Virus record (IMG/VR): IMGVR_UViG_3300017917_001143
Location: 1-29,215 of that record
Length of the DNA: 29,215 nucleotides
DNA from: a virus
Reading direction: 5' to 3' (one strand)
The position numbers were made by a program, and so were the translations under genes. This document shows positions 3,771-26,947 of this stretch, in pieces. Each line of letters opens with the position of its first letter. The stretch's first letter is position 1. The notes below the pieces were generated by a model. That model worked only from the letters and a program-made list of their open reading frames with translations. It was not told the origin of the DNA and did no database searches.

Positions 3771-5201
3771 ATGCTCGGTCGCCTCCTCGGTGGGCGTGAT
3801 CCTGAGACCCGCAACGTCACCTGGCAGTCGCTGTGGCTGACGGACCAGGACATCCCCGTCCGCACCCTGTCGGGTGTCTCGGTGACGCAGCAGAACGTGA
3901 TGGCGCAGGCCGCGGTGTTCGACGCGGTGCGCCTCATCGCGGACCCCATCTGCACGCTGCCCATCGGCACGTTCATCCGTCAGAACGGGGAGCGCCGCCC
4001 GTTCTACCCGCAGCCCGCGTGGATCGAGCAGCCGGACCCGGACCCCTCTGTGCAGCGGTCGGACCACTACCAGCAGATCATGGTCAGCCTGCTGCTCAAC
4101 GGCAACTACTACGGGCGCATCCTGCGGGAGAAGGGCGAGATCGTCGCCATCGCCCCGCTCGACCCGACGCGGGTGGAGCCGAAGCGCAACAAGGCCGGCT
4201 TCGTCGAGTTCATCGTCGACCAGACCACTGCGCTGCAGGCGTCCGACGTCGTCCACATCACCGAGCTCCGTGAGCCGGGTGCGCTCAAGGGCGTGTCCCG
4301 CATCGAGCGACTGCGCGAGGTGTTCGGCATCGGCAAGGCGCTCGACGAGTACGTGGCGCGCTACTTCTCCGGCACCCTGTCCTCCGGCATCGTGCTCTAC
4401 CCCGGCGAGATGTCACCCGAGCAGGCCAAGAGCCTGAAGGACGAGTTCGAAAAGAACAGCAAGGGCCTGCGCAACGCGCACCGCCCCAACATCCTCACCG
4501 GCGGCGCCAAGTACGAGCGCATCGCGGCAACCGCGGACGAGGCGCAACTGACGCAGGCCCGTGACTTCTTCACCCTTGAGGTCGCCCGCGCCTTCAAGAT
4601 CCCGCCGAGCAAGCTCGGAGTGAACACTCCCGGCACCCGCGCCTACGCCTCGGTGGAGCAGGACAACATCGACTTCGTCACCACGACGCTGCGCTACTAC
4701 GTCTACAAGATCGAGGAGGCGTACAGCCGCCTCCTGCAGCCCCGTGCCGCGTTCATCCGGCTCAACATGGAGGCGCTCCTCCGGGGCGACCAGCAGTCGC
4801 GCTACGCGGCCTACAGCCAGGGCGTGCAAGCGGGCTTCCTGTCGATCAACGACATCCACCGACTGGAGGACATGCGGCCCGTGGACGGCGGCGACACCTA
4901 CCGGGTGCCGCTGGCGAACGTCGACCTGGGCGCGGCCAACATCACCGAGACCCAGATGCGCGTGGAGATGGCCGTGCAGCTCATCACCGCGGGCTTCGAC
5001 CCCGAGGCCGCACTGGCCGCGGTGGGCCTGCCGGGCATCGACCACACCGGGCTCGCCAGTTCCCAACTGCAGGCCATCGACGCCAGCGGCGACACCAGCA
5101 ACGACAACGACGCCGACGAGGCACCGACGCGCACCGTGCGGCACATCGAGCGTGACGAACAGGGCTTCATCGCCCGCATCATCGAAACCGAGGAGCACTG
5201 A
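3771..5201 (+). CDS. Portal protein, HK97 family, 476 aa
   Basis: Forms the dodecameric ring at one capsid vertex through which DNA enters and leaves. Typical HK97-portal features include an N-terminal segment VFDAVRLIADPI near residue 45, NGNYYGRI, the IAPLDPTRV block, and the region around KIPPSKLGVNTPG. The C-terminus (about residues 430-476) is acidic and low in complexity. The start is ATG at 3771 behind GAGAGGGG. A longer reading from 3726 would overlap the upstream small gene and lacks a site. The stop shares one base with the next ATG (TGATG). Unlike the usual portal-protease-capsid order, three other genes separate it from the protease. Confidence 0.95.
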   Translation: MLGRLLGGRDPETRNVTWQSLWLTDQDIPVRTLSGVSVTQQNVMAQAAVFDAVRLIADPICTLPIGTFIRQNGERRPFYPQPAWIEQPDPDPSVQRSDHYQQIMVSLLLNGNYYGRILREKGEIVAIAPLDPTRVEPKRNKAGFVEFIVDQTTALQASDVVHITELREPGALKGVSRIERLREVFGIGKALDEYVARYFSGTLSSGIVLYPGEMSPEQAKSLKDEFEKNSKGLRNAHRPNILTGGAKYERIAATADEAQLTQARDFFTLEVARAFKIPPSKLGVNTPGTRAYASVEQDNIDFVTTTLRYYVYKIEEAYSRLLQPRAAFIRLNMEALLRGDQQSRYAAYSQGVQAGFLSINDIHRLEDMRPVDGGDTYRVPLANVDLGAANITETQMRVEMAVQLITAGFDPEAALAAVGLPGIDHTGLASSQLQAIDASGDTSNDNDADEAPTRTVRHIERDEQGFIARIIETEEH

Positions 5202-5560
5202 TGGCAACCGTCCTCTCTGACGCGGGCAAGAACCTCGCGCTCAACGGCTTCGCGGGCGGCGCCGTCTACGCCAGCCTGCACAACGGCAACCCGTCCACCA
5301 CGGGCGCCAACGAGATCACCGGCGGCTCCCCGGCCTACGCCCGCAAGTCGGTCTCCTGGGCCGCTGCAGCGTCCGGCGCGCTGACCACCAACGCGCAGAT
5401 CGTGTTCGACGTCCCCGCGGGCACGACGATTCAGTACGTCGGCTTCTGGTCTCTCGCCTCGGGCGGCACGTTCTACGGCCACGTCACGATCACCAACGAG
5501 ACCTTCGCGGGTCAGGGCACCTACACCATCGCGTCCGGCGACATCGACTTCACGGCGTAG
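5201..5560 (+). CDS. Virion-associated beta protein, tail-fibre/decoration type, 119 aa
   Basis: A small Gly-, Ala- and Thr-rich protein. The segment YASLHNGNPSTTGANEITGG and the later VPAGTTIQYVGFWSLASGG are a recurrent module of actinophage tail-fibre or virion proteins, built around short beta strands (family recognition from memory, no formal search). There is no signal peptide or membrane span. It starts one base inside the portal stop, so it is translationally coupled to it. Its presence in the head module suggests a head- or neck-associated adhesin or decoration protein, but it could equally be a fibre subunit whose gene has moved. Function is inferred. Confidence 0.75.
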   Translation: MATVLSDAGKNLALNGFAGGAVYASLHNGNPSTTGANEITGGSPAYARKSVSWAAAASGALTTNAQIVFDVPAGTTIQYVGFWSLASGGTFYGHVTITNETFAGQGTYTIASGDIDFTA

Positions 5561-5563
5561 CAC

Positions 5564-6385
5564 ATGGCGATCACGACGGGTGACGGCTACGTCGCCTCTT
5601 CCAAGCAGATCATCACCTACACCAAGACGGCGGCCACGACGACGACGGCCAACTCGCGCTCGACCATCCGCGGCGCGGCGGGCAACCCCGGCGCGGCGAC
5701 GATGGCCTACACCGCGTTCGCGTCCAACGGCCAGGTGCCGACCGACGCCACCTCGGGCATGCCGGTCATCAACGCCTTCGGCGGCGGCGCCACCGGCTAC
5801 CTGACCCGCGTGCAGTGGAACAACTCCGTCGTGGGCCGCGTCGAGCTGTGGGACGTCCTCTGGGGCGGCAACATCCCCACCGGCGCCGGCGGCTTCGGCT
5901 CCCTGCAGACCCTCAACGCCACCCCGGCGTCGTACCTCAGTCGCTGCCCGGACGGCGCCGGTCACGGCCTGCGCATCTTCTTCGAGATCACGACCACGAT
6001 GTCGGCCACCGCGACGACGCTGAGCGTCACCTACACCAACAGCGACGGCACGGGCTCCCGCTCCACGGGCGCCAGCGCCTCGCTGTCCGGCCTCATCGCC
6101 AACCGCTGGGTCGAGTTCCCGCTGCAGGCCGGTGACCGCGGCGTGCAGAAGATCGACGCGGTCGTCATCGGTGGCGCGACGAACGCCGCAGGCGTGGGCA
6201 ACATCATCGTCGCCCGCCCGCTGTGGACGAACGGCACCCGCGTCGCCAACTCCGGCACCAGCGAGGGGCTCGACATGACGGGCATGCCCATCGTCTACGC
6301 CGACTCTGCCCTCGTCGTGACCACCGTGGCTGACTCGACCTCCTCCGGCATCGTGGACATGAACATCGAAATCGCCAACGGCTAG
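5564..6385 (+). CDS. Putative virion structural protein, 273 aa
   Basis: Not assigned to a named family. It is rich in Thr, Ser, Ala and Gly with short alternating strands throughout, as expected for a beta-sandwich virion protein. Visible landmarks are RVELWDVLWGGNIPTGAGG around residues 92-110, a single Cys in SRCPDG, and GDRGVQKID near residue 190. It starts 3 nt after the previous stop, with no strong ribosome-binding site, so it probably depends on coupling. It sits between two other unusual virion-type genes in the portal-protease gap. The strand-rich, Thr/Ser-rich composition would suit a surface-exposed protein and possible O-glycosylation, but that is inference. Confidence 0.75.
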   Translation: MAITTGDGYVASSKQIITYTKTAATTTTANSRSTIRGAAGNPGAATMAYTAFASNGQVPTDATSGMPVINAFGGGATGYLTRVQWNNSVVGRVELWDVLWGGNIPTGAGGFGSLQTLNATPASYLSRCPDGAGHGLRIFFEITTTMSATATTLSVTYTNSDGTGSRSTGASASLSGLIANRWVEFPLQAGDRGVQKIDAVVIGGATNAAGVGNIIVARPLWTNGTRVANSGTSEGLDMTGMPIVYADSALVVTTVADSTSSGIVDMNIEIANG

Positions 6386-6393
6386 GAGGGGCC

Positions 6394-7188
6394 ATGCCTC
6401 TCACCCCTCCTGAGCGTTGGGGCACCGGCAATCCGCTGCGCCGCCTGCGGCTTTCGGAAGCGTTCATCACGCAGACGCACGGCGGCGCCGCCGGTGACGT
6501 CGTCACCAGCATGGAGTTCCCGACTCCGGCCAGCAATGACAACAAGACTGGCACCGTCGCCGGCGCGCTTGCCCTCTCGGGCACCGTCGTAGGCAAGGAG
6601 GGCGCCACCGGCACCGTCGCCGGTGCCATCGCCCTGTCCGGCACCATTACGGGCAAGGAAGGCGCCCTAGGGGCCGTCACCGGGACGCTGGCACTGTCTG
6701 GCACCACCGCCGGAAAGAAGGGCGCCAGCGGCGCCACAGCGGGCACCGTGACCCTCTCCGGCATGGCAGAGGGCACCGAGGGCCGCACCGTCACCGTCGC
6801 GGGGCAGATCACGCTCGACGGCACCGTCATCGGCACCAAGTCCGACCCCGACGGCCCGGTGGCGCCGGAGTCCACCGGAGGCGGGGGCGGCTACTACCGC
6901 TACCAGCAGCCACCGGCGCCGAAACCCCAGCCCATCGAGCGCCGCTCGGGCAAGGTGCGCGGCACCGTCACCGTGCGCGGCTACATCCGGGGTCGCAAGG
7001 GCGCCGCCACCGCTGCCCGCTCAACGGTCACCGCCCGCTGCGAGATACGCGGCGGCAAGGGCGCCGCCGGTGACGCCTGGATGCACACCGTTACCCGCGC
7101 CGCCGCGCACGGCACCGGCATCTCAATGGTGCCGCACAACCACATTCGCCAGATGCGCGAAGACGCCGAACTGATGCTGTTGATCTGA
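6394..7188 (+). CDS. Repeat protein with seven 20-residue repeats, 264 aa
   Basis: Residues 52-151 are five tandem 20-residue repeats of the form (T/S)G-x-V-x-G-x-(L/V)-x-(L/V)-x-G-x-(V/I)-x-G-K-x-G-A. After a Gly-rich and Pro-rich linker (152-184) two more copies follow at 185-204 and 205-224, in which Ala and Ser are widely replaced by Arg. The regular Gly and alternating Val/Leu predict a beta-solenoid or stacked beta structure. The N-terminus (residues 9-28) is basic and the C-terminus ends in a short helix. The start is ATG at 6394 behind AGGAGGGG. The protease gene follows after 11 nt. Probable virion surface or spacer protein; function inferred. Confidence 0.75.
   Translation: MPLTPPERWGTGNPLRRLRLSEAFITQTHGGAAGDVVTSMEFPTPASNDNKTGTVAGALALSGTVVGKEGATGTVAGAIALSGTITGKEGALGAVTGTLALSGTTAGKKGASGATAGTVTLSGMAEGTEGRTVTVAGQITLDGTVIGTKSDPDGPVAPESTGGGGGYYRYQQPPAPKPQPIERRSGKVRGTVTVRGYIRGRKGAATAARSTVTARCEIRGGKGAAGDAWMHTVTRAAAHGTGISMVPHNHIRQMREDAELMLLI
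6547..6846 (+). repeat. Five tandem 60-bp coding repeats
   Basis: Five in-frame copies of a 60-bp unit coding for the 20-residue repeat. Copies 1 and 2 are the most alike at both DNA and protein level, and the fifth is the most diverged, consistent with growth by unequal recombination followed by drift. Confidence 0.85.
6946..7065 (+). repeat. Two further diverged 60-bp coding repeats
   Basis: Two more copies of the same 20-residue pattern after a linker of about 33 residues, now Arg-rich. Spacing of Gly (positions 2, 6, 12, 16, 19 of the unit in copy 6) matches the first array, so both arrays probably share an origin. Confidence 0.7.
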
Positions 7189-8016: not shown

Positions 8017-9225
8017 ATGTCGTATCTGCAGCGTCTCATCGACGCACAGAACGCTGACCTCCACGCGGCTCGGGCGTACATCGACCGTGCCGAGGAGGAG
8101 AAGCGCGAGCTCAGCCACGAGGAGCGCACCGCCTGGGACGCACTGAACGCCCAGATGGACGCCCGCGCTGAGCACATCGAGCAGGTCAAGGCTGACGAGG
8201 CGCGCTCGCTGCGCGTCGAGTCCGCGATGGCCGAGGCCCCCGAGCTGCGGGCGACCCCCGCCGCTGCCGAGCCCCCGGCTGAGAACGTGGCCGCGATCCT
8301 CAAGGATCTCGCCACGGGTCGTCGCTCGTCCTACGTCTTCGGCGCTGAGACCCGTGCGGTCTCGACGACGACCACCGCGGGCGGCTTCACCATCCCCGAG
8401 GGCTTCGGTGGCCGCATCATCGAGAAGATGCTGACGGTCGGGCCGATGCTCGACGCCAACGTCGTCAACCTCATCCGCACCACGTCGAACCAGGACATCC
8501 CGTTCCCGATTGAGAACGCCCGTCCGGTCGGCACGGCGACGGCTGAGGCCGCGACCTACGCGGACAGCACGTCGACCTTCACGCAGAAGACCCTCCGGGC
8601 CTACAAGTACGGCACCCTGCTGCTGGCCTCGGACGAGCTGCTGCAGTCGGAGGACGTCGGGCTGCAGGCGTACCTCGCCAACCAGCTCGGCATCGCCATC
8701 GGAACGGCCTGTAACAGCATTTTGACGCTCGGTACCGGGACGGTTCAGCCCGAGGGGCTGGCAGGGGCTGCGGGCTCCGGCGTCACCGGCGGCACCGGCG
8801 TGTCCGGCGCTCCGACCTTCGAGAACCTGGTGGACCTCGTCCACTCGGTTGACTCGCTGTACGCGGCCAGCCCCAACGCGGGCTTCATGCTGCGCCGCAG
8901 CGCGCTCGGCACCGTCCGCAAGATCAAGGACGGCGCCGGCAACTACGTGTTCGTCCCGGCCCCCGCGGTCGGCATGGCGAGCACGCTGTACGGCTACCCG
9001 GTCTACGAGAACCCCTACGTGGCGGCTGTGGCGACCAACGCCAAGTCCATCCTCTTCGGCGACTTCTCGTACTTCCTGGTCCGTCAGGTCGGCGGCATCG
9101 AGCTGTCCCGCTCCAACGAGCGGTTCTGGGACAGCGACCAGGTCGGCCTCAAGGTTCGCACCTGGGTCGACTCGTTCCTCGGCCAGTCCGAGGCGGTCAA
9201 GTACTTCGCGGGCGGCACGGCCTAG
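8017..9225 (+). CDS. Major capsid protein, HK97 fold, 402 aa
   Basis: Main shell subunit. Residues 1 to about 90 form the charged, coiled-coil-like delta/scaffold region that the upstream protease should remove. It is followed by an Ala/Pro-rich joint and then the HK97 shell domain, starting near TTAGGFTIPEGFG (residues about 118-130). Landmarks are IPFPIENARP, the E-loop/A-domain block, and KVRTWVDSFLGQSEAVKYFAGG at the end, the last part typical of HK97 shells. The start ATG at 8017 has AAAGGAG at correct spacing. The longer frame from 7951 runs through the hairpin region and is not used. The gene is followed by a strong hairpin, as expected for the most highly expressed late product. Confidence 0.96.
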   Translation: MSYLQRLIDAQNADLHAARAYIDRAEEEKRELSHEERTAWDALNAQMDARAEHIEQVKADEARSLRVESAMAEAPELRATPAAAEPPAENVAAILKDLATGRRSSYVFGAETRAVSTTTTAGGFTIPEGFGGRIIEKMLTVGPMLDANVVNLIRTTSNQDIPFPIENARPVGTATAEAATYADSTSTFTQKTLRAYKYGTLLLASDELLQSEDVGLQAYLANQLGIAIGTACNSILTLGTGTVQPEGLAGAAGSGVTGGTGVSGAPTFENLVDLVHSVDSLYAASPNAGFMLRRSALGTVRKIKDGAGNYVFVPAPAVGMASTLYGYPVYENPYVAAVATNAKSILFGDFSYFLVRQVGGIELSRSNERFWDSDQVGLKVRTWVDSFLGQSEAVKYFAGGTA

Positions 9226-9247: not shown

Positions 9248-9284
9248 GTCGAGGGGGGCGGGGCGCAGGACCGCCCCCCTCGAC
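9248..9284 (+). terminator. Strong hairpin after the capsid gene
   Basis: A perfect 14-bp stem (9248-9261 with 9271-9284), nearly all G-C, with a 9-nt loop, 22 nt after the capsid stop. No T-run follows, which is common for terminators in high-GC actinobacteria. It probably gives partial termination or protects the capsid mRNA 3' end, separating it from the glycosylation genes. Confidence 0.8.
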
Positions 9285-9332
9285 TCACCTCCTGCACCCC
9301 CTGCGCACAACCTGCGAACGGACAACCCTGCG

Positions 9333-10610
9333 ATGAACCGAGCAGAACGACGCCGCGCCGAGCGGCAGGGCAAGACCACCAACCCCCTCGCCATCACCTG
9401 GTACTCCAACGCTGTCTGGGCTGGGACCGGGTACGGCACGCAGACCAAGGAGACCGTCGGGCGGCTCATCGCCGACGGCCACCGCGTCGCCATCCAGACC
9501 AACTACGGGCTGCAGGCGACGCAGATGATCTACGACGGCATCCCCCACTACCCGATGGGCATCGAGCCGTGGAGCCAGGACGTCGTCGAGGGCGCCTTCC
9601 GCGACTGGTCGCGGCAGAACCCGGACCAGACCCCGCTGCTCATCGCGCTGTTCGATGCCTGGCCGCTCAAGGCTCCCGCGTGGGACCGGATGCCGGTCGC
9701 CATCTGGACCATGATTGACCACCTGCCCGCGCCGCCCGCGGTGCTGGCGTTCCTGCAGAAGCCGAACGTGACCCCGCTCGCGGCGTCCCGGTTCGCGCAC
9801 GAGCAGATCGGCAAGGCGGGCATCGAGTCCATCTACGTCCCGATGGCAATCGACACCGAGGTCTACAAGCCGTCCCCGACGTGGAGCAACGGCCACCGCA
9901 GCGTCGGTGGCCGCGAACTCATGGGCTTCGGCGAGGACGCCGACGACCTGTTCGTCGTGTCGAGCATCAACGCGAACAAGTCCGGCGGCGGCGTCCACCG
10001 CAAGGCATGGGGCGAGCACGCGCTGGCGATGAGCATCTTCCTGGCGAACCACGACGATGCCCGCTGGTACATCCACACCGAGCAGTTCGGCAACATGGGC
10101 GGCGTCAACTTCGCCCCGCTGCTGGACTCCCTGAACATCCCGGCCTACCAGTACCGCTTCGTCAACCAGTGGGCGCAGCACACCGGCATCCCGAACGACG
10201 CGATGGCGACGCTCTACACCGCGACGGACGTGCTGCTCGCGCCCACGCTCGGCGAGGGCTTCGGCCTCACCGTCTGCGAGGCGGGAGCCTGCGAGACCCC
10301 GGTGATCGTGTCGGACTTCACCTGCCAGCCGGAGCTGGTCAGTGATGACTCCTACCTCATCGGCGGGCAGCCGTGGTGGGACGCCTCGCAGGCCGCCTGG
10401 TGGCAGGTGCCGAACGTCGCCGAGATCGTCGAGGCGCTGGAGGCCGCCTACCAGCGGGGCCGCTACCGCTCTACCAAGCAGCGCGACCACATCGTCAACA
10501 ACTACGACGCCGGCGTCGTCTACGAGCGCCACTGGAAGCCCGCGCTGGAGGTTCTCGCAGCCAAGGCCGCGCCGCCGGAGGAGGTCGAGCCGTGGGCACC
10601 ATCGCGGTGA
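9333..10610 (+). CDS. Glycosyltransferase, GT-B fold, GT4-like, 425 aa
   Basis: Transfers a sugar from a nucleotide-sugar donor to an acceptor. The C-terminal half has the signature APTLGEGFGLTVCEAG with E308 and E316 in the E-x7-E spacing of retaining GT4-type enzymes. The N-terminal half (about 18-175) has the Rossmann-like acceptor domain, with GTGYGTQTKE at 31-40 in the glycine-rich loop position. There is no membrane segment, so it acts in the cytoplasm. The start is ATG at 9333, with no good ribosome-binding site. It comes after the capsid terminator and overlaps the next gene by 19 nt. Its likely acceptor is a virion protein (inference from position); a host wall or lipid sugar is the alternative. 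Confidence 0.9.
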   Translation: MNRAERRRAERQGKTTNPLAITWYSNAVWAGTGYGTQTKETVGRLIADGHRVAIQTNYGLQATQMIYDGIPHYPMGIEPWSQDVVEGAFRDWSRQNPDQTPLLIALFDAWPLKAPAWDRMPVAIWTMIDHLPAPPAVLAFLQKPNVTPLAASRFAHEQIGKAGIESIYVPMAIDTEVYKPSPTWSNGHRSVGGRELMGFGEDADDLFVVSSINANKSGGGVHRKAWGEHALAMSIFLANHDDARWYIHTEQFGNMGGVNFAPLLDSLNIPAYQYRFVNQWAQHTGIPNDAMATLYTATDVLLAPTLGEGFGLTVCEAGACETPVIVSDFTCQPELVSDDSYLIGGQPWWDASQAAWWQVPNVAEIVEALEAAYQRGRYRSTKQRDHIVNNYDAGVVYERHWKPALEVLAAKAAPPEEVEPWAPSR

Positions 10611-11299
10611 CCGGCTCGTCCGGCCACCTCGGTCGGACCCTCGTTCCCTACCTGTGGGAGCGCGGCCACATCGTCGAGCCCGTGGGCCGCCTCATCCCGC
10701 CGGACCTGCAGGCCGACGTGCTCATCCACGCCGCGGCCCCGGACTGGCGCAGCGACGAGGCCGTGGCCGCGTTCGCGTGGTTCAACGAGGACGTCGCACG
10801 CTGGGCCGAGGTCACCGGGGGACGGGTCATCAACATCGGCTCGTGGTGGCAGTACGCGAGGGGCGACGCCGCGGACCTGGCCTACAGCAGGATGAAGGAC
10901 GACCAGCAGGCGATGTTTCCCTGCACGGTGGTCCCGTTCAGCATCTACGGCACCACGGCCCGCGAGGGGCGCGGATTCATCCCGCAGTTGCTGCAGCATG
11001 TCCGAGGCCGTGGGAGCGTCACAGCGGCCTCGACAGAGCCGCGGGACTGGATACACGTCACCGACCTGTGCGACGCGCTACGCGCCGTCCTGCGGGCTCC
11101 TGACGGCATTTACGAGGCGGCCAGCGGCGTGCAGTACAGCGCCGCGGAACTGCTCCGGGCGATGACCGGCGAGCGCGTCCCGGTGTGGCCGGACGTGCCG
11201 TCCTGCACCCCGGTCTACCGCCACCCGCGGGTGCCCGGCTGGACCCCGCGGACCAACGTGCTGACCTACCTCGCCCGCAGCGTGGGGGCGGTCGCATGA
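10592..11299 (+). CDS. NAD(P)-binding epimerase/reductase, extended SDR type, 235 aa
   Basis: Probably makes or modifies a nucleotide sugar for the neighbouring transferases. The N-terminus carries the Rossmann motif TGSSGHLG (residues 7-14), and the catalytic Y98-x3-K102 (YSRMK) is present. VPFSIYGTTAREG and RDWIHVTDLCDAL are typical of NDP-sugar epimerases and dTDP-4-keto-rhamnose reductases. At 235 aa it is shorter than the usual 290-340, mainly in the substrate-binding part. The start is GTG at 10592 behind GGAGGAGG, 19 nt inside the glycosyltransferase gene. The stop overlaps the HNH gene start (ATGA). The exact sugar cannot be told. Confidence 0.88.
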   Translation: MGTIAVTGSSGHLGRTLVPYLWERGHIVEPVGRLIPPDLQADVLIHAAAPDWRSDEAVAAFAWFNEDVARWAEVTGGRVINIGSWWQYARGDAADLAYSRMKDDQQAMFPCTVVPFSIYGTTAREGRGFIPQLLQHVRGRGSVTAASTEPRDWIHVTDLCDALRAVLRAPDGIYEAASGVQYSAAELLRAMTGERVPVWPDVPSCTPVYRHPRVPGWTPRTNVLTYLARSVGAVA

Positions 11300-11886
11300 A
11301 GACCTGTAGCAAGTGTGGCGAGACGAAGCCTCTGGAGCACTTCGGGAAGCGGTCTGCATCCAAGGATGGCCTTGAGCAGCGATGCCGGCCCTGCACTGTC
11401 GCTGCAGCCCGTGCATGGGCGCAGAGCAACCCTGACAGGGTGAAGGCGAACTGGCAGAGGTGGGCAGACCAGAACCGTGACCGAATAGCGGCTACAGCAA
11501 AGGCTTACTACGAGTCGCACCCGCGAGACCGATCCAAGATGGCAGAGAACGCTCGCCGCCACTACTGGAAGAACGTGGAGCGCAACCGCACGCTCCGAAG
11601 GATGAACCAAAGAGCGCGCAAGGCTCGGGCAGCCAGCCTTCCTGAGTTCAAGATCATCGGCAAAGACATGGACCGGCTACTCGCCAGCCCATGCGCAGTC
11701 GCTGGCTGCTCCGCTACCGACATCCAGATTGACCACGTCATCCCCATCGCTCGCGGTGGAAGTCACGGCGTTGGCAATCTCCAAGCCCTATGCGGCTTCC
11801 ACAACCGCAGTAAGGGAGCACGGACCTGGATGGAGTTCCGCATGTACCTGCGACGTGTGGCGGCTCGCGAGATGGGGGCAGCATGA
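11296..11886 (+). CDS. HNH homing-type endonuclease with N-terminal zinc finger, 196 aa
   Basis: DNA nuclease, most likely a selfish homing gene. The N-terminal Cys4 finger uses C4, C7, C30 and C33. The middle (40-105) has repeated N/H-P-x-R-x-K type helical units, common in phage HNH proteins. The HNH core is IQIDHVIPIARGGS with D146-H147, N161 and H169, plus structural cysteines C133, C138 and C166. It starts on the stop of the epimerase gene (ATGA) and ends on the start of the next transferase (ATGA), so it fits the operon exactly. Its codon use is visibly less GC-rich than either neighbour, pointing to recent arrival. No intron or intein borders are seen, so it is free-standing. Confidence 0.93.
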   Translation: MKTCSKCGETKPLEHFGKRSASKDGLEQRCRPCTVAAARAWAQSNPDRVKANWQRWADQNRDRIAATAKAYYESHPRDRSKMAENARRHYWKNVERNRTLRRMNQRARKARAASLPEFKIIGKDMDRLLASPCAVAGCSATDIQIDHVIPIARGGSHGVGNLQALCGFHNRSKGARTWMEFRMYLRRVAAREMGAA

Positions 11887-12527
11887 TCCCCGTCCTCGGA
11901 GTGCCGGTACTTGCCCGCCCGGAGCTGCTGTACCGGATGGTCAACTCCATTGACCACCCCGTCGGGCACCTGCTCATCATTGACAACGGCGGCGTTGTCG
12001 GGATGCCGCCGGACGACCTGCCGAACATCGACAAGGTCTCCGTGGTGCGACTTCCCAGCAATCTGGGAGTAGCGGCTGCTTGGAACCTCATTATTAAGCT
12101 GGAGCCACATGCCCCCTATTGGGTCATATCCAACTTTGATGTGACCTTCCCGCCCGGCTCGCTCGCCCGCTTCGAGGAGTTCCAGACCGGCGGGCTCGTC
12201 CTGTCCGCAGCAGCGCCGCCGTGGGCGTGCTTCGCGCTGCATGACGAGACCGTCCAGCACGTCGGACTCTTCGACGAGGCGTTCTACCCGGCCTACTGGG
12301 AGGACATCGACTACGAGCGCCGGGTGCGCTCCGCGGGCATCCCGGTCATCCAGTCGGACATCCCGGTGCACCACGACAACTCCAGCACCATCGCCGTCGT
12401 CCCCAACCGGCTCGACGTCACCTTCGCCGCAAACAAGGCGTACCACGAGGCCAAGTCCTACCGCGGCGACAACTCCGAGGGCGGCTGGTCGCTGCGCCGG
12501 CGCCGCGAACTGGCGTGGGACCGATGA
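11883..12527 (+). CDS. Glycosyltransferase, GT-A/GT2-like, 214 aa
   Basis: A family-2-like sugar transferase. Typical landmarks are LLIIDNGG (30-37), the LPSNLGVAAAWN block (58-69), N84-F85-D86 in place of the usual D-x-D metal/nucleotide site, and FDEAFYPAYWEDIDYERR (130-147), with E140/D141 in the catalytic-base position. This matches small rhamnosyl- or galactofuranosyl-type GT2 enzymes. There is no membrane span. It overlaps the HNH gene by 4 nt and the next gene by 4 nt. The stretch around 12050-12140 is markedly lower in GC than the rest of the gene, a possible recombination patch. The acceptor is unknown; a virion protein is the simplest guess. Confidence 0.85.
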   Translation: MIPVLGVPVLARPELLYRMVNSIDHPVGHLLIIDNGGVVGMPPDDLPNIDKVSVVRLPSNLGVAAAWNLIIKLEPHAPYWVISNFDVTFPPGSLARFEEFQTGGLVLSAAAPPWACFALHDETVQHVGLFDEAFYPAYWEDIDYERRVRSAGIPVIQSDIPVHHDNSSTIAVVPNRLDVTFAANKAYHEAKSYRGDNSEGGWSLRRRRELAWDR

Positions 12528-13171
12528 GCGACATCACGGTCATCGCGACGTGCTACGGCGACTACTGGGACACCTTCCACGAGCAGTGGGAGCAGTCCAT
12601 CGCCGGGCTCGACCCGGCACCCGCGGAGATCATCCTGGTCTCCGACGTCGAGCGCCCGGTGCCCGAGGGCGTGCGCAACATCGTGATCGGCCCGGCGCAC
12701 ATGACGGACTACTGGATGGTGGGCGCGCTGGCCGCGCAGACCGAGTGGGTCAGCCTGTCGGGGTTCGACGACGTGTGGCTGCCGGACGCGATGACGCCGT
12801 TCGACACCACCGCCGACGTCTACGGCTTCCCGGTCATCATGGTCGGGCTCATGTCTGGCCCGTTCGCCTACGGCGGCGGCTACGAGTCCATCCTGCATGT
12901 GCAGCACAACCCCATGCTTGGGGACTTCTTCTACCGGCGCTCGCTGCTGGAGGAGATACCGCTGCGCCGGATGGGGTACATGGACTGGGCGCACTTCGCG
13001 GAGATGCGCTACTTCGGCAAGACCTTCGACGCCGGCGGCCCGCCGCGGGCGTACAAGACCCGCCACCCGCAGGCCATCAGCCTGGTCAACAACCCGACGT
13101 TCCAGCAGGAGATCGACGCCTTCAAGGTGCGGTTGCTGGCCGGACGCATCCAGAAGGGGGTGCCCGAGTGA
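12524..13171 (+). CDS. Second GT-A-like glycosyltransferase, 215 aa
   Basis: Starts MSDITVIATCYGDYW, the strand-loop start of a GT-A nucleotide-binding domain, followed by EIILVSD (35-41) and SLSGFDDVWLP (78-87), whose D82-D83 would be the metal-binding acidic pair. YGGGYESI and an aromatic C-terminal half (GYMDWAHFAEMRYFGK) follow. It is shorter and less canonical than its neighbour, so the transferase call rests on fold landmarks plus position. The start is ATG at 12524 in a 4-nt overlap; a GTG 9 nt upstream has no ribosome-binding site. The end overlaps the connector gene by 4 nt, so the island runs straight into the tail module with no promoter visible between them. Confidence 0.75.
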   Translation: MSDITVIATCYGDYWDTFHEQWEQSIAGLDPAPAEIILVSDVERPVPEGVRNIVIGPAHMTDYWMVGALAAQTEWVSLSGFDDVWLPDAMTPFDTTADVYGFPVIMVGLMSGPFAYGGGYESILHVQHNPMLGDFFYRRSLLEEIPLRRMGYMDWAHFAEMRYFGKTFDAGGPPRAYKTRHPQAISLVNNPTFQQEIDAFKVRLLAGRIQKGVPE

Positions 13172-13806
13172 GCATCACCAACGGCTACGCCACGCTCAAC
13201 CAGCTCAAGTCGTGGATCGGCGTCGGCACGGCAGACACGATGGACGACCCCATGTTCGAGATGGCCGTCGAGTCTGCCTCCCGCATGGTGGACGACGACT
13301 GCGACCGCGTGTTTTACGCCAGTGGCACCGCCGTGGCCCGCGTGTTCTCGCCCGCGGACAACTACCTCGCGCACATCGACGACGCCATCGCCATCACCGC
13401 CGTCGCCACCGACCAGGACGGCACCGGTGTCTACTCGACAGTCTGGACCTCGGGCACCGACTACCAACTGGAGCCGCTCAACGGCATCTCCGGTGGGCAG
13501 CCGTGGCCGTACACCCGCATCCGCGCCGTGGGCTCCAAGACGTTCCCGAACGGCGTCATGCCGTACTCCACCGACTTCGGTGAGGCGACGCTGCAGGTCA
13601 CTGGGCAGTGGGGCTTCGGCACCGCGGTGCCCATCGCCATCACGCAAGCCACCCTCATCCTCGCGGCGAGGATCGCCAAGCGTGGGGACAGCCCGCTCGG
13701 CATCGCGGGCTTCGGCGACATGGGCGCCCTTCGGGTGACCCGCAATGACCCGGACTACATGAACCTCATCAGCCGCTACCAGCGCATGAAGGTCGCCACC
13801 GCATGA
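13168..13806 (+). CDS. Head-tail connector (gp6-like adaptor), 212 aa
   Basis: Sits under the portal and links head to tail. The N-terminus, GYATLNQLKSWIGV with a run of small acidic helices (about residues 5-45, DDPMFEMAVESASRMVDDDCDR), is typical of phage gp6/QLRG-type adaptors. The beta-rich middle and the final helical part with the PLGIAGFGDMGALRV segment, common to actinophage connectors, agree. The start GTG at 13168 has GAAGGGGG upstream and overlaps the previous stop. It overlaps the next gene by 4 nt. In most relatives it follows capsid directly; here about 4 kb of island separates them. Confidence 0.85.
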   Translation: MSITNGYATLNQLKSWIGVGTADTMDDPMFEMAVESASRMVDDDCDRVFYASGTAVARVFSPADNYLAHIDDAIAITAVATDQDGTGVYSTVWTSGTDYQLEPLNGISGGQPWPYTRIRAVGSKTFPNGVMPYSTDFGEATLQVTGQWGFGTAVPIAITQATLILAARIAKRGDSPLGIAGFGDMGALRVTRNDPDYMNLISRYQRMKVATA

Positions 13807-26155: not shown

Positions 26156-26947
26156 CTACGCCACCGCGAGCACCGCGGCCCGCATGGAGTCCTCGTTGGG
26201 CCGCACGTAGCGGCTGGTCGTGACCGGGTCGGCGTGCCCGAGGAGCTGCTGGACGGCCCGCAGGTCGTGAGTGGCGTCGTACCAGCGGGTCGCGGCGTAC
26301 CGGCGCAGGTCGTGGGTGCTGTACGGCTCCCCGAGGGCGCGGGTGACGAGCCGCTGAATGGTCTCGGGGGTGACGTGCTGGCCGGGCTTGACGTGGCTCG
26401 GGAACGCCCAACCGTGGTGGGCCAGCAGGTCGTCGCAGTAGGGCCGCAGCCGCGGGTGCATCGGGATGCGCCGCTCCTTGGAGCCCTTGCCGACGATGAC
26501 CAGGTCGTCGCCGTCGATGCAGTCCGAGCTGAACGTGGCGATCTCCTCTCGGCGCAGGCCGGCGCGGCTCCCGAGCAGCAGCGCGAGCCGGGTCCGGTCG
26601 TCCGCGAGCAGGATGGCGCGGTCCAGGTGGCCGGAGGACAGCGCCGGGCGGGACCGCTCGTGCGTCTTGACCGAGCGGACCATCGCCGCGGGGTTGTGGT
26701 CGAGGTAGCCCATGCCGACCGCGAAGTGGTAGAAGGACTTGATGGCCGACAGGTGCCCGGCCCGCTGCCACGGGGAGCCCGTGAGGCTCCGCAGGTGGTC
26801 GAGGATGTCGTCGGTGGTCACCGCGAGGAGGTCGCGGTCACGGGCGAACGTGCCGAGGGTATAGCGGCGGTTGCGGATCGTGTTGGGCGACAGGTTGCCC
26901 GAAGCCAGCCAGTCGAGCCATGCAGCCGTGAGCTGCGCGTTAGTCAT
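26156..26947 (-). CDS. int: Tyrosine-type integrase, 263 aa
   Basis: Inserts the phage into the host chromosome by site-specific recombination. Full catalytic set: R132 (GLRREE), K157 (GKGSKER), H212-x2-R215 (HDLRRYAATRWY), H238 (LLGHADP) and Tyr nucleophile Y247 (TTSRYV). The N-terminal core-binding domain (about 1-95, with a SAM-like helix set) is present. At 263 aa it is short, and no separate arm-type DNA-binding domain precedes it, so it resembles simple recombinases of the XerC/D size. The start ATG at 26947 has GGGGGTGG upstream. It lies downstream of the repressor, same strand, with an 88-bp gap. The host att site is not identifiable here. Confidence 0.94.
   Translation of the reverse strand: MTNAQLTAAWLDWLASGNLSPNTIRNRRYTLGTFARDRDLLAVTTDDILDHLRSLTGSPWQRAGHLSAIKSFYHFAVGMGYLDHNPAAMVRSVKTHERSRPALSSGHLDRAILLADDRTRLALLLGSRAGLRREEIATFSSDCIDGDDLVIVGKGSKERRIPMHPRLRPYCDDLLAHHGWAFPSHVKPGQHVTPETIQRLVTRALGEPYSTHDLRRYAATRWYDATHDLRAVQQLLGHADPVTTSRYVRPNEDSMRAAVLAVA

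Follow-up and report, generated by a model that had tools for sequence, protein, structure and literature searches.

Genes for sugar-transferring enzymes within the head module of a phage raise the question of what those enzymes modify and how they are held to the capsid gene. The window analysed here, the 29,215 nucleotides of IMG/VR record IMGVR_UViG_3300017917_001143, belongs to a phage of actinobacteria with a sugar-transfer enzyme set directly 3' of its capsid gene. The HK97-type capsid gene (MCP) is followed by GTB, SDR, an HNH endonuclease gene, GT2a, GT2b and a head-tail adaptor gene, in that order (Table 1). A whole-DNA search for close phages returned a single 59-base match and no near relative among named phages. 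We consider it probable that this locus, an integral part of the head module, serves virion glycosylation.

Table 1 Features of the window between the capsid gene and the head-tail adaptor gene
Feature	Position	Strand	Evidence
Major capsid protein (MCP), HK97 fold, N-terminal scaffold-like region	8017..9225	+	PF05065 6e-50; phrog_10 1.8e-65
14-bp hairpin 3' of capsid stop codon, loop GCGCAGG at 9263-9269	9248..9284	+	fold and family comparison
Three CCTGCG copies (9300-9305, 9311-9316, 9327-9332)	9300..9332	+	complementary to hairpin loop
GTB, GT-B glycosyltransferase, GT4-like, 425 aa, core gene of island	9333..10610	+	PF00534 1.8e-10; phrog_2170 7.7e-19
SDR, short extended SDR, NAD-dependent epimerase/dehydratase family, 235 aa	10592..11299	+	PF01370 1.9e-12
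HNH endonuclease at SDR/GT2a ATGA junction	11296..11886	+	PF14279, PF01844; phrog_1035 6.7e-31
GT2a, GT-A glycosyltransferase, GT2-like, 214 aa	11883..12527	+	phrog_29879 1.7e-41; GT-A model
GT2b, GT-A glycosyltransferase, 215 aa	12524..13171	+	phrog_9549 2.9e-5; GT-A model
Head-tail adaptor, HK97 gp6 type, downstream border	13168..13806	+	phrog_442 2.4e-15

Four enzymes and an inserted endonuclease gene

GTB, SDR, GT2a and GT2b form a translationally coupled run, judging by their sequence, and the adaptor start overlaps the end of GT2b at GTGA. A sequence-only reading of the window had placed four enzymes at these positions, and profile matches, GT-A models and dN/dS values confirm them. All four are under purifying selection, with dN/dS of 0.23-0.44 (0.44 for GTB) relative to the sister contig L015, and are therefore real genes. 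The same reading described one coupled run of four enzymes; the coupling stands, but the HNH gene within the run had been overlooked.

GTB scored 41.1 bits against Glycos_transf_1/GT4 (PF00534, cut-off 26.4), and its EX7E-type region, GEGFG..E, is kept in 22 relatives. The SDR begins at a GTG overlapping GTB and carries the motifs TGSSGHLG, YSRMK and RDWIHVTD; the extended-SDR pattern TGxxGxxG and the S/T and YxxxK catalytic set are conserved among relatives. Its predicted reaction could equally well be that of a reductase or dehydratase as that of an epimerase. The earlier suggestion that this enzyme signals an unusual sugar is not supported, as substrate and reaction are unreadable from sequence and most relatives are without this SDR. 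Pfam gave no match for GT2a or GT2b. Structure search of the four proteins had been proposed with the sequence-only reading, and the GT2a and GT2b models proved to have the GT-A fold (pLDDT 85 and 74, respectively), with matches to WrtF, SpsA, GlfT2 and ppGalNAc-T2. The GT2a model lies close to AvpGT/GlfT2, and that of GT2b aligned with WrtF over 172 residues (Z 18.8, rmsd 2.5). Acidic residues are invariant among relatives at D86 in GT2a and D82/D83 in GT2b; modelled fold and acidic metal/sugar motif together identify both as GT-A transferases.

The HNH gene is a mobile insertion, precisely present or absent at one site in sister phages. The site is empty in sister phage L009 (GGTCGCATGATCCCC), and L008 carries a different HNH gene at the same SDR/GT2a site. 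At 0.71, its GC3 is lower than that of the four enzyme genes (0.87-0.97). It resembles the freestanding phage HNH endonucleases of phrog_1035 in its zinc-ribbon-like N-terminus, its position between phage genes and its presence or absence in sisters, and differs from them in lying exactly on the ATGA stop/start junction, with coupling kept on both sides.

GTB is the fixed part of the locus and the genes behind it vary

GTB sits 3' of the MCP gene in 33 loci, and in 31 of these the two are at most 165 nt apart. Mapped on the MCP tree, the presence of GTB requires 3 changes, compared with 9.2 when labels are shuffled. One gain and two losses fit this distribution, and GTB appears to have been lost at least twice, within one subgroup. 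It is absent at the locus in two phages of a Microbacteriaceae MAG (L028 and L022), natural losses that stand beside the carriers L007, L113 and Pontimonas phage phiPsal1; in L016 it is fused to a GT2 domain. GTB has diverged in step with the capsid and portal genes (distance correlations of 0.93 for GTB-MCP, 0.96 for GTB-portal and 0.95 for MCP-portal). Linkage without functional coupling would likewise give correlated trees among adjoining head genes.

The genes 3' of GTB are exchanged between relatives, and comprise epimerases, GT2, GT17, cytidylyltransferases and sugar-type methyltransferases (Methyltransf_24/RMNT_CmcI). The identifiable cassette genes of relatives are glycan-type. One cassette gene, in L053, belongs to PHROG 14775, as does the N-terminal half of Che8 gp108. 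No description of a transferase gene following the capsid gene turned up in a literature search, and the layout of a fixed core with a variable cassette is apparently undescribed so far.

A hairpin with a conserved loop precedes GTB

The sequence-only reading had noted a terminator behind the capsid gene. The hairpin itself is real, but a U-tract is absent in the window and the conserved loop had been missed. Hairpins in the loci were located by direct stem search, and the 18 aligned elements were picked by the loop GCGCAGG. Across these 18 relatives, 12 of 12 stem pairs covary. Rfam gave 0 matches at the gathering score for positions 9248-9332, with sub-threshold chance matches only, and a hairpin element with this loop between the capsid gene and GTB is apparently undescribed so far. 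Downstream, the CCTGCG copies lie at the GTB ribosome-binding site, the last ending at the GTB start codon.

From these sequences, pairing of the loop with the CCTGCG copies is likely. A broader proposal, which we hold tentatively, is cis regulation of particle glycosylation in a widespread lineage of actinophages: the hairpin loop of the capsid mRNA would pair with CCTGCG flanking the GTB ribosome-binding site and set enzyme against capsid output, while exchangeable cassettes would alter the sugar coat. The alternative, to which we give not quite an even chance, is that a phage protein binds the CCTGCG/CGCAGG repeat, or that the repeat is functionless inherited sequence, and that the hairpin is only a terminator. 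Since the loop and the downstream motif are the same sequence read in opposite orientations, a common ligand would likewise cause the two to change together, and outgroup prophages have post-capsid hairpins without the motif. Against a protein site or functionless sequence, CCTGCG is rare in low-GC relatives yet clusters between about -5 and -24 relative to GTB, and loop and downstream copies are altered together in L040 and L045. The loop is also unchanged while the stem varies at every pair, in 18 elements picked for that loop, and the loop/downstream complement signal is absent from loci without GTB. The element makes regulation directly testable by reporters.

Virion, host surface or DNA as the target

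We infer the acceptor, sugars and order of action as follows. GTB would be translated from the capsid operon and work in the cytoplasm of the infected cell, where its acceptor would be either one of the particle's structural proteins (capsid, tail tube or head fibre) or the first sugar attached to such a protein. GT2a and GT2b would lengthen the glycan, and the SDR would supply one donor by converting a nucleotide sugar of the host. GTB would be the constant component; the genes behind it are swapped between related phages, and the glycan would therefore differ from phage to phage. The hairpin may reduce enzyme expression relative to capsid through termination, perhaps also through loop pairing at the GTB ribosome-binding site. 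The MCP is a candidate acceptor of the glycan, and comparison of MCP columns with GTB presence, which includes two natural losses only, gave no convincing acceptor residue or loop. That L028 and L022 manage without a GTB gene at the locus was counted against a virion role, as was the lack of orthology between the three transferases and Che8 gp108-110.

Capsid or tail glycosylation had been the best guess of the sequence-only reading. Co-divergence of GTB with the head genes speaks for it, as do the lack of transmembrane segments and of GtrA described below and the presence of the same pair in phiPsal1, which is described as lytic (PMC6106888); no MCP residue clearly tracks GTB loss, which weakens it.

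It is improbable, in our estimate, that the enzymes instead alter host surface glycans during infection, blocking re-adsorption or superinfection. Such modification is common for phage transferases in other systems and is among the roles proposed for freshwater actinophage transferases (PMC10202952), and the variable cassettes could mirror differences between host walls; P. salivibrio itself carries 28 glycosyltransferases, many of them gained horizontally (PMC6106888). However, no transmembrane segment was predicted in the island proteins of the window (holin-like controls were positive), and the GtrA flippase (PF04138) was absent from 14 records of the phage group, with the positive control matched in 7 genomes. 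A GtrABC serotype-conversion cassette was rejected on these grounds, and the two results are evidence against host-surface seroconversion. The late structural-operon position would moreover confine action to shortly before lysis, GTB tracks the head genes, and lysogenic conversion is inapplicable to phiPsal1, given its description as lytic.

For related transferases of freshwater actinophages, glycosylation of modified phage DNA bases, of T4 or TET type, has also been suggested (PMC10202952), and a DNA methyltransferase gene lies at 430-1680 of the window. This methyltransferase is of the N6/N4 type, however, and a thymidylate-synthase-like hydroxymethylase (PF00303) was missing from the 14 records, which include the complete phiPsal1 genome and several fragments (control matched in 9). 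Tet_JBP gave no match, with its control silent as well. A chain of GT-A, GT-B, epimerase and sugar-methylation enzymes better fits an oligosaccharide, and we regard a DNA target as very unlikely.

Glycosylated phage virions have been reported for a few mycobacteriophages. If virion glycosylation is the correct reading, a broad, largely metagenomic actinophage lineage has it as a core head function, and a fixed first enzyme with exchangeable tailoring genes would suggest selection for differing particle surfaces. The natural losses and the three carriers provide a comparison for the role of the glycan.

Comparison with known systems

Chlorovirus PBCV-1 encodes both transferases and nucleotide-sugar SDR enzymes that serve the glycosylation of its capsid (PMC9614988). 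The window shares virus-borne SDR and transferases with it, and GTB weakly matches B736L (3oy2). The chlorovirus differs in being a eukaryotic virus with an unrelated capsid fold, and its genes are not a head-module cassette.

Virion proteins of Che8, Corndog and Myrna are glycosylated, which is attributed to the phages' own transferases (PMC12363180, PMC11256854). Phage-encoded transferases are the likeness to Che8 gp108-110, Corndog gp38 and Myrna, there reported to act on virion proteins. Orthology of GTB, GT2a and GT2b to Che8 gp108-110 was rejected (hhalign probability 0.1-16.6 in five pairings), and tblastn gave no mycobacteriophage match. In Che8 the genes occupy the end of the genome, whereas in the window they adjoin the capsid gene.

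The closest arrangement is that of phiPsal1 (MG835450, 2018), whose genes 009-013 encode MCP, a group I glycosyltransferase, a GT2 glycosyltransferase and a gp6 neck protein. The order MCP-GTB-GT2-neck is already known from that phage, and the window has homologous MCP, GTB and neck genes in the same order, with GTB 36% and GT2a 43% identical. phiPsal1 differs in carrying an opposite-strand methyltransferase gene between its two transferases, and is without SDR, GT2b, HNH and the motif hairpin of the window.

Layout of the island and its HNH insertion

The viral record, of 29,215 bases and 68% GC, has a late gene order that runs from the small terminase subunit, TerL and portal through three small genes, the protease and the major capsid gene (MCP) to the island, followed by the head-tail adaptor (neck), tail completion, tail tube, tape measure and fibres. 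A sequence-only reading had placed four enzymes in one coupled run between capsid and connector, and all four were located where it had put them: a GT-B transferase (GTB), an extended SDR and two GT-A transferases (GT2a, GT2b). The coupling was borne out at every junction from GTB to neck, with overlaps of 19 nt between GTB and SDR, ATGA at SDR/HNH, HNH/GT2a and GT2a/GT2b, and GTGA at GT2b/neck, but a fifth gene, for an HNH endonuclease, had been overlooked.

Positions of features in the window and in related phage loci
Feature	Position	Remarks
DNA methyltransferase	430-1680	N6/N4 type with fused ParB_N domain; adjoins terminase genes
Small head protein	5201-5560	one of the three small genes after portal; phrog_240, Gp80 fibre family in Pfam; Ser and Thr together 21%; present in some GTB-positive relatives only
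Two proteins between head fibre and protease	5564-7188	neither matches a family above cut-off; one has GTVAGALALSGT-type repeats; the first of the two seen in this window alone
MCP	8017-9225	
Hairpin	9248-9284	
CCTGCG copies	9300-9332	
GTB	9333-10610	
SDR	10592-11299	GTG start at 10592
HNH endonuclease	11296-11886	between SDR and GT2a
GT2a	11883-12527	
GT2b	12524-13171	
Neck	13168-13806	
Tyrosine integrase	26156-26947	minus strand
Fusion ORFs	L016:2743-4782; L019:9324-11351	GTB reading frame extends to about 675-679 aa
Extra sequence between capsid hairpin and GTB	L043:8788-9286; L089:9611-10522	with reverse-strand ORFs

A sister phage (contig UViG_3300019776_000202, loci L009/L015), whose MCP is 87% identical to that of the window, lacks the HNH gene; its corresponding site reads GGTCGCATGATCCCC, with the SDR stop directly overlapping the GT2a start. 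In L008 the same insertion point, the SDR/GT2a ATGA overlap, is occupied by another HNH, with 46% identity. GC3 is 0.71 in the HNH gene vs 0.87-0.97 in the four enzymes. The HNH gene is a mobile insertion that kept the coupling on both sides and lies outside the glycan function.

The four enzymes appear intact

The GT4-type C-terminal region of GTB and its GEGFG..E motif are both retained in 22 relatives; TGxxGxxG, S/T and YxxxK of the SDR are retained in seven sequences. Pfam gave no match for GT2a or GT2b. AlphaFold models, built on small alignments of 8 and 12 sequences, gave both a GT-A fold (pLDDT 85 and 74), with best matches to AvpGT, GlfT2, WrtF and ppGalNAc-T2 for GT2a and to WrtF for GT2b (Z 18.8, 172 residues, rmsd 2.5). 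The acidic motifs of both are invariant. Nei-Gojobori dN/dS against L015 was 0.44 for GTB, 0.33 for SDR, 0.23 for GT2a, 0.29 for GT2b and 0.27 for MCP.

GTB behaves as a head-module gene

TerL-based scans yielded 13 genomic and 80 viral loci, many of them fragments and several near-copies, so that counts refer to loci and not to independent events. In 33 loci GTB is the gene next after MCP, within 165 nt in 31 of these; in eight loci of actinobacterial genomes, which are more distant, no GTB stands behind MCP. Presence of GTB on the MCP tree requires three changes (shuffled mean 9.2), for which one gain and two losses are the simplest reading. The losses, L028 and L022, are nested beside the carriers phiPsal1 (a Pontimonas phage, MG835450) and L007, and both come from a single Microbacteriaceae MAG, one metagenome bin, whose third phage contig (L113) reads MCP-GTB-GT2a-neck. 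In pairwise distances GTB tracks MCP at r 0.93 and portal at r 0.96, a correlation as close as the 0.95 between MCP and portal themselves; GTB therefore behaves as a head-module gene and not as a passenger.

Glycosylation of the virion, as the sequence-only reading had guessed for capsid or tail, is the best-supported role, although no glycan acceptor was found; the small head protein is a possible alternative acceptor. Such a role would account for the head-module position, for a history in common with the capsid and portal genes, for the lack of membrane segments in the window's island proteins and of GtrA in 14 records of this phage group, and for the occurrence in phiPsal1, which is lytic according to its authors (PMC6106888). 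The main rival is modification of the host surface instead of the virion; glycosylation of DNA by the island transferases is unlikely. The window phage, in contrast to phiPsal1, may be temperate, because it encodes a tyrosine integrase. That the epimerase denotes an unusual sugar, as had also been proposed, is not proved by the SDR.

An exchangeable cassette lies behind GTB

Gene content 3' of GTB varies between relatives, and all cassette enzymes that can be identified are of glycan type.

Cassettes found 3' of GTB
Content	Loci
SDR-(HNH)-GT2a-GT2b	window, L015, L008
GT2a-cytidylyltransferase-unknown	L106, L093; L024 similar
GT2a with GT2b and Methyltransf_24/RMNT_CmcI methyltransferase	L070, L071
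GT2a-phrog_14775 transferase-GT2b	L053
Unknown-phrog_14945 transferase-epimerase	L085, L061, L111, L052
Epimerase-methyltransferase-GT2a	L084, L095
GT17	L046
Sialyltransferase-like	L050
GT2a alone	L007, L113
GTB-GT2 fusion and SDR	L016 (Pfam-confirmed), L019 (by length)

In L016 a Pfam GT2 domain is fused behind the GT-B domain, and their union in one chain suggests that they act one after the other on a single glycan.

A conserved hairpin precedes GTB

A hairpin loop with GCAGG was found in 26 of the 30 GTB-positive intervals having a usable hairpin; in L007, L010, L024 and L092 the hairpin differs or is absent. The stem is 12-18 bp and varies in sequence between groups, and the loop contains GCGCAGG, or GGCAGG in L040/L045. 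Among 18 distinct stems selected for the loop AGCGCAGG, two-sided changes occurred in 12 of 12 pairs and 100% of cells pair, with a covariation score of 1.166 (0.292 shuffled, at most 0.337 slid). The hairpin can securely be regarded as an RNA structure. Rfam has no family matching the element (9248-9332).

Copies of CCTGCG, the loop complement, occur in the region of the ribosome-binding site, some 5-24 nt before the start codon of GTB; the hexamer is otherwise rare in low-GC relatives. The longest complement between loop and downstream sequence averaged 5.8 nt in 30 GTB-positive loci (4.2 shuffled; Fisher 2e-11, over related loci) and 4.0 in 13 loci without adjacent GTB (4.0 shuffled). In L040/L045 the downstream copies read CCTGCC, one concerted change with the loop. 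A pattern scan of viral contigs returned at least 80 readable loci, at least 41 with GTB downstream; among the matches listed, 40 of 41 GTB-downstream loci have stems of 12-19 bp and matches elsewhere have no comparable stem. Pairing of the loop with the GTB ribosome-binding region is a good hypothesis, and a protein ligand binding both motif copies could also explain them. L043 keeps a CTGCG motif about 21 nt before GTB despite its extra sequence.

Comparison with known systems

In a limited literature search, neither the combination of a conserved GTB core and an exchangeable cassette nor the RNA element was found described. Orthology of the window enzymes to the mycobacteriophage transferases Che8 gp108-110 was considered and rejected. 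Two papers report virion glycosylation by phage enzymes in Che8, Corndog and Myrna (PMC11256854, PMC12363180). Che8 gp108 shares phrog_14775 with the cassette gene of L053, and in phiPsal1 transferases had already been annotated behind the capsid gene.
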